From Candidatus Kuenenia stuttgartensis (lineage in GTDB: Bacteria > Planctomycetota > Planctomycetia > Planctomycetales > Planctomycetaceae), in NCBI GenBank assembly GCA_945861865.1, contig CAMAWN010000036.1:1-37276 (forward strand): DNA of 37,276 nt, written 5' to 3'. The position numbers and the translations under genes are program-made. Below are positions 12,553 through 36,802 of this stretch, piece after piece. Each line of letters opens with the position of its first letter. Positions within the stretch are counted from its first letter, which is position 1. A model generated the notes under the pieces. That model made no database searches, was not told the origin of the DNA, and saw only the letters and a list, made by a program, of their open reading frames with translations.

Positions 12553-12611
12553 TAGCCCGACGCGCTAGCGAGGGGTTTCATTCGCTCATCCCTTGCTAGC
12601 GCGTCGGGCTA
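12553..12611. repeat. Palindromic repeat (TAGCCCGACGCGCTAGCG), overlaps epimerase stop
   Basis: The left arm begins TAGCCCGACGCGCTAGCGAG and the right arm ends CTAGCGCGTCGGGCTA, giving an inverted repeat of about 22 bases around a 14-base centre. The outer CTA at 12609-12611 is the TAG stop codon of the leftward epimerase gene. It shares the GACGCGC core with the repeats at 21848, 24819, 30815 and 36749. Confidence 0.85.
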
Positions 12612-21835: not shown

Positions 21836-21847
21836 CTGCCTCGCGAA

Positions 21848-21909
21848 ACCAGCACGACGCGCAAGCGAGTGGTTTTCCGAGCAACCACTCGCTTGCGAGT
21901 GGTGCTGGT
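21848..21909. repeat. Palindromic repeat, GACGCGC/GCGAGTGG family, copy 2
   Basis: The left arm begins ACCAGCACGACGCGC and ends AAGCGAGTGGTT; the right arm starts AACCACTCGCTTGCGAG and ends TGGTGCTGGT. They pair over about 27 bases. It lies between the methyltransferase and hsp70 genes. Its sequence is closest to the copy inside flhF (30815-30887). Confidence 0.88.
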
Positions 21910-22104
21910 GTGTCAGGGCACTTTTCCGAGGTTGAAACATTGGTCAGCCGCAGTGCCTGCGACCGCGCGCTTGCTTCACCGGTTTGTGACCGTCAGAATG
22001 CCCGCCTCATTTCGGTCGGTGGAGCGGGTTCGCCGCTTCGGCCACTGCTGTTCCAACGCACGTTGGATTCACACACACTTTGAGACAACCTCTAGGGACA
22101 CACC

Positions 22105-23685
22105 ATGTCATTGAGACTGATGCCGGGAGCGACTGTCGGAATCGACTTGGGAACGACTTATTCCACGCTGGCGCAAATCGACAAGGACGGGCATCCGCTC
22201 GCGCTGAACAACGCGAGCGGCAAGACCATTACGCCGTCTGTCGTACTGCTGGGTGAGGACGGCAAGGTCATCGTTGGTCCCTCCTTTGAACGCATCGCCG
22301 TCGAAGACTCGTCGCACGTCATCGAAGCCATCAAACGCGAAATGGGCAACAAGGCCTACTTCGTCGTCTATCAAGGCAAGAAGCTCACTCCGGAGTTCAT
22401 CTCCGCGTTGATTCTCAAAAAACTAAAGCAGGACGCGGAAACGCAAGTCGGCCCGATTGCCAACGCGGTCATCACCGTGCCGTACTATTTCAACGACGTG
22501 CGCCGCAAGGCGACGCAAGATGCCGGCCGCATCGCCGGACTGAACGTCATCGACATCATCAACGAGCCGACCGCCGCCACATTGGCCTACGCCTGGATGA
22601 AGGGCGAGTTGGGGCGCACTGACCTGCAACAGAAAGAGCGCACCGTCATCGTCTACGATCTGGGTGGTGGCACGTTTGACGTGACGGTCGTGCGGTACAC
22701 GCCGACGCACTTCAAGGTGCTCGCGACCGACGGCGACGTGATGCTCGGCGGTCTCGACTGGACGCGCCGCATCGTCGATTACGTCTCGCAGCAGTTCAAA
22801 ACCAAGTTTGGGATTGATCCTCGTGAAGATCCGGAAACGATGCAGTCGCTCGCCCAGGACTGTGAATTGGTGAAGCGCGAGCTGTCGCAAAAGGCTCAGA
22901 CGCAGATCGCCGTGTACTGCAAAGGCAATTCGCTGACCATCTCGCTCACACGCGGCGACTTCGAGCGGATGACCGCCGATCTGTTGCAGCGAACGCGTGA
23001 CACCACCGAATTGGTGCTCCAACAATCGGGAGTCAGCACGAAAAACCTGGATGACCTGATCCTGGTCGGCGGTTCGACACACATGCCGATCGTTGAGAAA
23101 ATGCTGACGGAAGTTACCGGCCGCGCGCCTTCTCGTGACGTTTCGCCAGAGGAAGCGGTCGCTCAGGGAGCCGCCATTCACGCCGCCATCCTCGAAGCCA
23201 AGGCCACTGGCGGCGAAAGCCGCATGGGCAAGATGGTCATCAATCGACTCCGTTCGGTGCAGACCAGCGACGTCAATTCGCACTCGCTGGGGGTCAAAAT
23301 TACCGACCCGCAAAATCGCAGCCGCAAGATCAACCACATCATGATCCCCAAGAACACATCGATTCCCTTCAGCGTCAAGCAGAAGTTCGTGACCACGACC
23401 TCCAATCAGCAGCGGATTCACGTCAGCGTGCTGGAGGGAGACGCGATGGACCCGGACGCCTGCGAACAGATCGGCGACTTCTACATCACTGGCTTGCCGT
23501 CGAACCTGCCAGCCGGGTCACCGGTCGAAGTGACCTACTCCTACGATGCGAACGGCCGCATCAACTGCACCGGTATGGAAATGACCAGCCGACAGGTCGC
23601 CTCTACCGAGATCGTCCGCAGCGGCTTGCAGAACAAAGACGTGGACAACTTCGAGATACTCGCACGGGACTATCAAGTCGAGTAA
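22105..23685 (+). CDS. Lidless Hsp70 (DnaK-like) chaperone
   Basis: A 526-residue Hsp70 homologue. The ATPase domain is intact: phosphate-1 VGIDLGTTYSTLAQI near residue 11, phosphate-2 VIVYDLGGGTFDVTVV near 181, and adenosine motif LILVGGSTHMPIVEKM near 317. A substrate-binding beta domain follows (SDVNSHSLGVKI near 390, then VTTTSNQQRIHVSVLEGD and VTYSYDANGRINCTGME near 482). The protein then ends about 40 residues later. The alpha-helical lid and the EEVD-like or Gly-rich tail found in DnaK (about 638 residues) are missing. It is therefore a second, specialised Hsp70 rather than DnaK itself. AGGG precedes the ATG by about ten bases. The J-like membrane protein gene follows after 50 bases and is probably co-transcribed. 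Confidence 0.93.
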   Translation: MSLRLMPGATVGIDLGTTYSTLAQIDKDGHPLALNNASGKTITPSVVLLGEDGKVIVGPSFERIAVEDSSHVIEAIKREMGNKAYFVVYQGKKLTPEFISALILKKLKQDAETQVGPIANAVITVPYYFNDVRRKATQDAGRIAGLNVIDIINEPTAATLAYAWMKGELGRTDLQQKERTVIVYDLGGGTFDVTVVRYTPTHFKVLATDGDVMLGGLDWTRRIVDYVSQQFKTKFGIDPREDPETMQSLAQDCELVKRELSQKAQTQIAVYCKGNSLTISLTRGDFERMTADLLQRTRDTTELVLQQSGVSTKNLDDLILVGGSTHMPIVEKMLTEVTGRAPSRDVSPEEAVAQGAAIHAAILEAKATGGESRMGKMVINRLRSVQTSDVNSHSLGVKITDPQNRSRKINHIMIPKNTSIPFSVKQKFVTTTSNQQRIHVSVLEGDAMDPDACEQIGDFYITGLPSNLPAGSPVEVTYSYDANGRINCTGMEMTSRQVASTEIVRSGLQNKDVDNFEILARDYQVE

Positions 23686-23735
23686 CTGACGGGATCTCTG
23701 ACCGCGACTCATGGTTGAAGCATCGGAGGACCGCC

Positions 23736-24788
23736 GTGGCATTGGACGTCTACAAGGATTGGCTTGGAATTCCCGACGGCCCGCGTCCGCCGGATCACTA
23801 CACGCTGTTGCGGTTGGTCCAGTTCGAAGACAACGCTGAAAAAATTCGCGCGAACTACCGCAAGCTCAACGGCCACGTCCGCAAGTACGCGACCGGGCAA
23901 TACTCGATTCCGTCGCAGGAACTGCTCAATGAGCTGGCCAAGGCGATGCTCCTGCTGACCGACCCGGAGCGCAAGCGGGAATACGACGAAAGCCAAGGCC
24001 GCGAATTCCCGGAAGAGCTGTCGCGCAGCGGCCACCGCCTGACCGAAAACGTGCTCGCCGAGCAGGGCACGATCACCAAGCAGCAGATCAATGAGCTCAA
24101 AGAGTTCGCCGACAAGCGTGGCCTGACCGTGCGTGACGCTGCCGTGCAAATGAAGCTGACGGACATCGACACCGCCACGCGAGCGCTCGCCATCGAACTC
24201 GGTTTGTCATACGTCGATCTTGCGGAAACGATTCCTGACGACAGCGTGCTGGACCGTGTCGCGCGCGCCACTGTGCGCCGCAATTCGATCATTCCGCTGT
24301 TCATCGACGACGACTACATCCTGGTCGCCTGCACGGACGAGATCACACACGATCTGGAGCAGGAACTCCGACTCACCTTCGACCTGCCTGTCCGCCCCGT
24401 GCTCGCTGCGCCGCCAGCGATCAATCAAGCCATCTCCAGATACTACCCGCCGGGCACGCGCGAAACGCCGGTCGTCGTCAGGAAGGAAACTCAGGCCGCG
24501 CCGGAACCGAAGAAGAGCAAGAAGGCCGACAAGGCCGCGAATCAACCGGTTGCGAAAGCGGTTGCCGCCGGGCCACACCGCTATTGGTCGCAGTTGACTC
24601 CGGACGAGCAAGCCAGCCGCAAGCAAATGGGCTACCTCATCATGTGCTGGGGAACGATTGGCTCGGTCATTCTCGACCAGATAGTCGTCTTCAAGTTCAT
24701 TTGGCCGACGTTTCCGTTCTCCTTCTTGCTGCCGATCTTCGTCGTCCCCGCTGTCGTGGGATACGTCAAGACGGTCTACTGGAAGTGA
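23736..24788 (+). CDS. J-like + MshEN-like membrane protein
   Basis: A 350-residue three-part protein. Residues 1-88 resemble a J domain (LLRLVQFEDNAEKIRANYRK and LLTDPERKREYDESQG), but the HPD tripeptide that drives Hsp70 ATPase is absent; its place reads LNGHVRKYATG. Residues 100-240 match the MshEN / GSPII_E N-terminal domain (LTENVLAEQGTITKQQINEL, then ALAIELGLSYVDL, LFIDDDYILVACTD and QAISRYY), a fold known in MshE to bind cyclic di-GMP. A Lys/Ala/Pro linker leads to two C-terminal transmembrane helices near 298-318 and 322-345, so the two soluble domains face the cytoplasm. GTG at 23736 has GGAGGA six bases upstream; the frame opens earlier at a TTG at 23715. It sits 50 bases after the hsp70 gene. 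Partnership is inferred from neighbourhood and the J-like fold. Confidence 0.82.
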   Translation: MALDVYKDWLGIPDGPRPPDHYTLLRLVQFEDNAEKIRANYRKLNGHVRKYATGQYSIPSQELLNELAKAMLLLTDPERKREYDESQGREFPEELSRSGHRLTENVLAEQGTITKQQINELKEFADKRGLTVRDAAVQMKLTDIDTATRALAIELGLSYVDLAETIPDDSVLDRVARATVRRNSIIPLFIDDDYILVACTDEITHDLEQELRLTFDLPVRPVLAAPPAINQAISRYYPPGTRETPVVVRKETQAAPEPKKSKKADKAANQPVAKAVAAGPHRYWSQLTPDEQASRKQMGYLIMCWGTIGSVILDQIVVFKFIWPTFPFSFLLPIFVVPAVVGYVKTVYWK

Positions 24789-24818: not shown

Positions 24819-24872
24819 GCACGACGCGCCAACGAGTGGCCGTCGCAACAACCACTCGCTGGCGCGTCGTGC
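24819..24872. repeat. Palindromic repeat, GACGCGC/GCGAGTGG family, copy 3
   Basis: GCACGACGCGCC and AACGAGTGG on the left pair with CCACTCGCTGG and CGCGTCGTGC on the right, with one mismatch over 21 bases. It separates the J-like protein gene from the leftward pseudouridine synthase gene and nearly touches the latter's stop at 24887. Confidence 0.88.
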
Positions 24873-36748: not shown

Positions 36749-36802
36749 GCACGACGCGCCAGCGAGTGGTGGCGGTGAGAATCCCTCGCTGGCGCGTCGG
36801 GC
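36749..36802. repeat. Palindromic repeat, GACGCGC/GCGAGTGG family, copy 5
   Basis: GCACGACGCGCC and AGCGAGTGG on the left pair with CCCTCGCTGG and CGCGTCGGGC on the right. The centre is GTGGCGGTGAG-like, similar to that of the flhF copy. It lies 40 bases after the aminotransferase stop. Confidence 0.85.

Follow-up and report, generated by a model that had tools for sequence, protein, structure and literature searches.

The stretch of DNA considered here (the window) comprises 37,276 nucleotides of a Candidatus Kuenenia stuttgartensis assembly (contig CAMAWN010000036.1 of GCA_945861865.1), and its subject is a pair of genes on the forward strand, the first encoding a lidless Hsp70 and the second a protein that joins a J-like domain, an MshEN domain and two C-terminal hydrophobic helices (Table 1). 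The two genes are separated by 50 bases, and the layout is the one that an earlier note made from the letters of the window had described.

Table 1. Positions of the two genes and of their domains and marked residues in the window
Feature	Position	Strand	Basis or remark
Lidless Hsp70, 526 residues	22105..23685	+	PF00012 match, DnaK alignment, family without lid, kept ATPase residues
Hsp70 nucleotide-binding domain (NBD)	~22126-23229	+	
Hsp70 beta substrate domain	~23272-23682	+	
D150 codon, place of DnaK R167 (acceptor of the HPD aspartate)	22552..22554	+	Family alignment
Hsp70 interdomain linker, RSVQTSDVNSHSLG	23251..23292	+	Polar; DnaK equivalent VLLLD
GGAGG, likely ribosome-binding site for the J-like/MshEN gene	23725..23729	+	Six bases 5′ of GTG 23736
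J-like / MshEN / two-helix protein, 350 residues	23736..24788	+	Predicted structure, 36-row alignment A1
J-like domain without HPD, residues 1-92	23736..24011	+	Structure prediction, PDB matches
R49-K50-Y51 codons, HPD place	23880..23888	+	Alignment
MshEN fold, ligand residues replaced, residues 100-240	24033..24455	+	
Two C-terminal hydrophobic helices, predicted membrane hairpin, residues 289-322 and 327-349	24600..24782	+	

The first protein is a member of the Hsp70 family by its match to PF00012 (406.5 bits against a cut-off of 20.6), and it falls short of the cut-offs of the DnaK equivalogs (401.1 of 648 bits for NF001413 and 389.3 of 822.55 bits for TIGR02350) and of the HscA equivalog (331.4 of 708.55 bits for TIGR01991). 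Three features expected of a DnaK-type protein, a helical lid, a hydrophobic linker and R167, are replaced by the absence of a lid, a linker reading VQTSD and an aspartate, D150. The alignment with E. coli DnaK extends to DnaK residue 512, and none of the 37 family members has residues past the end of the window Hsp70, where canonical planctomycete DnaKs carry 111-119 more in the same alignment. The R167 position is aspartate in all 37 family members and arginine in all canonical planctomycete DnaKs aligned. In a 32-row alignment of the family, the DnaK ATPase residues K70, E171, D194, T199 and D201 are each retained in every row, as is P419, and D393 is retained in 31, with mostly polar or small residues at the places of L390-L391-L392. 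The D481 to N exchange was considered as a further mark of the family and dismissed, as N also occurs in 15 of 19 canonical relatives.

J proteins drive Hsp70s by means of the HPD tripeptide, which acts as the trigger. D35 of DnaJ bonds with R167 and Q378 of DnaK, H33 contacts L391 in the linker, and basic residues of the J domain face E206, D211, E217 and D477 (PMC8215388). By the 32-row alignment, this acidic docking patch is turned basic or gone in the family, with E206 replaced by R or K in 27 rows, E217 by K or R in 31 and D477 kept in none; the D211 loop is deleted from the window Hsp70 in its alignment with DnaK. R167 is also in contact with D481, which restrains hydrolysis, and replacement of R167 by Ala, Lys or Asp raises the basal ATPase of DnaK (PMC4595643), which is why the window Hsp70 is predicted to have a loosened ATPase brake. 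These changes on the Hsp70 side, namely R167 to D, the polar linker and the altered docking patch, are read from alignments and had been missed by the earlier note.

For the second protein, the J-like domain modelled alone reaches a predicted local distance difference test (pLDDT) score of 95.1 and its PDB matches include J domains, indicating a J fold; a Foldseek comparison with the whole protein matched J domains weakly, and the PF00226 score stays below the cut-off (18.4 versus 27.8 bits). The loss of HPD is confirmed, as the place is occupied by R in 36, K in 33 and Y in 36 of 36 homologues, and alignment of 50 J-like relatives gives the tripeptide in none. The MshEN assignment holds both by fold, in a structure comparison covering residues 96-239, and by profile (PF05157), and a basic stretch of low model confidence lies between this fold and the C-terminal helices. 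Three records among the best 120 relatives (P0011, P0023 and P0094) label the protein as general secretion pathway protein GspE despite the absence of an ATPase domain.

From an MshEN-like domain the earlier note had proposed that the chaperone could be gated by cyclic di-GMP (c-di-GMP), and the MshEN fold is indeed clear. The MshEN domain is shared with MshE and PilB-type ATPases, from which the window protein differs by the lack of an ATPase domain and by its replaced ligand residues. Of the 36 homologues, 32 to 35 have other residues at key ligand positions (Q32 to A in 35, G40 to R and G47 to K in 34 each), and two 24-residue motifs of the form RLGxx..G..LxxxLxxQ, sought also in a relaxed form, are found in none of the 36 even when relaxed. 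In favour of such a gate, each of four genomes searched has 2 to 8 GGDEF matches, and D108 stays D in 26 of 36 homologues. Furthermore, an exchange of Q for E alone need not abolish binding, since the crystal entries of PilF-GSPIIB Q218E and Q190E are still c-di-GMP-bound according to their titles. With the published ligand residues replaced and the motif absent, gating by c-di-GMP is dismissed on sequence and appears very improbable. A related combination is known from Myxococcus xanthus, where the PilZ-DnaK proteins CsdK1 and CsdK2 join Hsp70s to a c-di-GMP-related domain (PMC10313047). As described there, PilZ is fused to the Hsp70 itself rather than carried by a separate MshEN and J-like protein, and the PilZ domain of CsdK2 retains its motif, whereas the MshEN domain here has its ligand residues replaced.

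Conservation of the pair, which the earlier note had put forward as a point to check, is extensive among relatives. Both genes occur in 37 of 59 genomes and neither in the other 22, with presence defined by a second protein matching over most of its length at E 1.7e-60 or better and an Hsp70 of 609.9 bits or more; the best Hsp70 of the 22 genomes without the pair reaches at most 446.7 bits. The genes are adjacent on the same strand, Hsp70 first, with gaps of 3-497 bases in 34 of the 37. All but one of the pair-bearing genomes (36/37) belong to one family, the other (G045) coming from a different family, and one member of the main family, a draft that is 91% complete (G022), is without both genes. 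Among 80 named planctomycete records, which partly overlap with the 59 genomes, adjacency is seen in 65 of the 78 with room upstream, and the 15 records other than the adjacent ones have the Hsp70 elsewhere in 13 cases and no match at the threshold used in 2. Neighbouring genes were clustered across 70 loci with up to 4 kb per side, the 80 loci having first been reduced by 10 that were nearly identical to the genus of the window; several large clusters were judged by position to be shadow frames of the pair. The flanking genes vary, the next likely real gene cluster being present at 9 of the 70 loci, and a larger operon was rejected, as only the two genes are widely retained. The Hsp70 and J-like/MshEN genes thus form a real two-gene unit.

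An old gene order retained by descent, with the two proteins residing together without joint function, would fit the origin of most pair-bearing genomes from one family and the paralogous lidless Hsp70s, which have no conserved partner gene at 6 loci. This explanation is improbable, given that genes outside the pair are not retained, that both genes are still held by 13 of the 15 records in which the pair is split, and that the draft G022 is without both.

Four palindromes that resemble one another lie at positions 21837-21920, 24819-24872, 12553-12611 and 36749-36802 of the window, with arms containing CGACGCGC.AGCGAG and the complementary letters. The gene pair is flanked by two of the palindromes, and the four possibly represent a dispersed palindromic repeat.

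The extent of R167 loss was surveyed in 43 Hsp70s from 12 genomes, leaving out matches below 70 bits (MreB-like or very divergent). R167 is kept in 19 of these and not in 24, and the two groups differ at the linker, where both L390 and L391 are hydrophobic in 18 of 19 against 0 of 24 and D393 is present in every protein with R167 but in only 10 of the 24 others. The 19 proteins with R167 all continue for 74-138 residues past the end of the window Hsp70, leaving room for a lid, whereas twelve of the 24 others have no such residues and the rest 3 to 240. A tree of the NBD, built without the R167 column, places the 19 in a single clade (support 1.0). No J-like profile neighbour lies within 3 kb of the 19, compared with 7 of the 24 without R167, each of the seven being the Hsp70/J-like-MshEN pair. 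The window's own genome encodes a second lidless Hsp70 without R167 (G000:C16, L131:5092-6687), 54% identical and without a J-like neighbour, for which no partner gene is common to three or more of 6 loci, shadow frames aside.

Among the J-like domains of other proteins that were listed, 9 of 36 have a listed Hsp70 no more than 3 kb away, five of the nine coming from the genus of the window. The J-like neighbours scanned contain WD40 repeats (L141, L142) or an F5/8C domain (L139), or have nothing over cut-off (L140, L278, L280), and the Hsp70s beside the WD40 and F5/8C proteins have D where DnaK has R167. All five such Hsp70s of f36, a distant family of planctomycetes, are lidless (L281-L285) and carry A at the R167 place, and the gene after each encodes a protein containing two J-like stretches; HPD is absent from the whole frame of each of the five, including the two (L282, L285) in which the first J-like stretch gave a partial match. 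Two of these J-like proteins were scanned and have PDZ domains too, with the second J-like stretch above the Pfam DnaJ cut-off. By sequence, Hsp70s without R167 recur beside HPD-less J-like proteins that carry WD40, PDZ or F5/8C modules. By contrast, an Hsp70 with R167 in G012 has nearby a 122-residue frame (L309:3560-3925) whose J domain reads PPD; the aspartate thus accompanies R167 there, in a single case that is itself without HPD. HPD is found in 11 of 13 Pfam-level J domains of four genomes, and ordinary J proteins therefore coexist with the Hsp70/J-like-MshEN system.

The favoured explanation, to which a probability of about one half is given, is that of a membrane-tethered chaperone-targeting pair in which the second protein recruits the Hsp70 by a contact predicted to be other than the HPD-R167 switch, given that the sequences have replaced the two halves of that switch. 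What the sequences establish is the gene order, the loss of HPD, R167 and the lid, the polar linker, the retention of the ATPase residues and the replacement of the c-di-GMP residues. The J-like domain would bind the neighbouring Hsp70 and act as a dock rather than a trigger. R167 belongs to the clamp that holds back the ATPase of DnaK; in its absence the basal ATPase of the Hsp70 would be higher and only loosely linked to the release of substrate, making an HPD trigger unnecessary. The lidless substrate domain of the Hsp70 would hold and then release fast. The MshEN domain would supply the address by binding a membrane-located protein instead of c-di-GMP, perhaps one of a pilus- or secretion-type assembly. 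The interpretation in the earlier note is therefore supported in part: recruitment of a chaperone to the membrane appears likely and the HPD trigger is gone, with the nucleotide second-messenger gate falling away.

The targeting explanation is favoured by the paired nature of the losses, HPD being found in 0 of 50 J-like domains and R167 being replaced by D in 37 of 37 Hsp70s. Several observations weigh against it. Helix II of the J-like domain stays basic while the facing Hsp70 patch (E206, E217) has turned basic, and the docking of DnaJ on DnaK can therefore not be copied; the clamp partner of R167, D481, is not distinctive either, since most canonical relatives also have N there. The pair is split in 3 of the 37 genomes, the genes lying apart in the complete genome G018 and on separate contigs in G016 and G035, and the counts are not independent because the genomes come mostly from one family. 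Within 3 kb, 17 of the 24 Hsp70s without R167 from the 12 genomes have no J-like gene, and 27 of the 36 listed J-like domains of other proteins have no listed Hsp70.

This last count would suit an explanation in which the J-like domain has no Hsp70 partner and is a structural or client-binding module, the two genes adjoining through a common client. A precedent is CPP1 of plants and cyanobacteria, in which an HPD-less J-like domain is followed by membrane helices and the partner is unclear (PMC10423991), and in four f5 genomes J-like domains are clear, at E 1e-14 or better, with no Hsp70 above threshold. CPP1 differs from the window protein by its four membrane helices, the lack of MshEN and, in the available text of its source, the absence of a reported Hsp70 neighbour. 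A partnerless J-like domain is nevertheless unlikely, since the genes adjoin in 34 of 37 genomes and since HPD-less J-like genes of other lineages and other architectures are again found next to Hsp70s that have no R167.

A different role for the J-like domain would be that of a regulator resembling Pam16, pairing with an HPD J protein and tuning canonical DnaK, with the neighbouring Hsp70 regulated likewise. Pam16 is not known to have a working HPD, and, unlike the window protein, it has no MshEN domain and forms a heterodimer with the HPD protein Pam18 on ordinary mitochondrial Hsp70. Pam16 (Tim16), a component of the mitochondrial import motor, places a degenerate J-like domain at the membrane in an Hsp70 system (PMC3806816). 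Such regulation is quite unlikely here, because the neighbouring Hsp70 has lost R167, the acceptor of HPD, and with it the residue that an HPD partner would engage, and no HPD J gene was found as a conserved neighbour across the 70 loci.

By analogy, the nearest working model for the pair is E. coli HscC with DjlB and DjlC, which retain HPD. HscC is a specialized Hsp70 that carries a lid domain, unlike the window Hsp70, and its tail-anchored membrane J proteins are encoded nearby (PMC8215388). The window pair may be of this type, as the adjoining gene and the predicted membrane helices are present, but HPD, R167 and the lid are missing here, the HscC system has no MshEN domain, and planctomycete HscC-like Hsp70s, a label given here from the linker, retain R167. 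Literature searches for planctomycete Hsp70s, MshEN with a J domain, HPD-less J-like domains and lidless Hsp70s found no report of the pair in titles and abstracts, partly among top-ranked matches only and with subscription journals mostly outside the scope.

A broader and more doubtful proposal is that the pair belongs to an HPD-free Hsp70 system of planctomycetes, in which a radiation of Hsp70s without R167, without the hydrophobic linker and often without a lid would cooperate with HPD-less J-like domains that have radiated as well, every one of them linked to an address module (MshEN with the membrane hairpin here, and WD40, PDZ or F5/8C elsewhere). In the present pair the salt bridge would be reversed, R49 and K50 of the J-like loop meeting D150 where D35 of DnaJ meets R167 of DnaK. 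The basic character of both helix II and the Hsp70 patch argues against such a reversal, as does the lack of a constant basic loop in the wider J-like group. Across 24 other J-like domains, R (10), Q (8) and H (6) occur at position 49, and position 50 has R twice and never K; a charge swap was accordingly rejected as a rule for all J-like domains.

As a conserved natural pair in which both the trigger and its acceptor are exchanged, the two proteins would provide a direct test of whether Hsp70 targeting is separable from ATPase triggering. A function would also be given to an unnamed or misnamed group of planctomycete proteins, the three records labelled GspE included.
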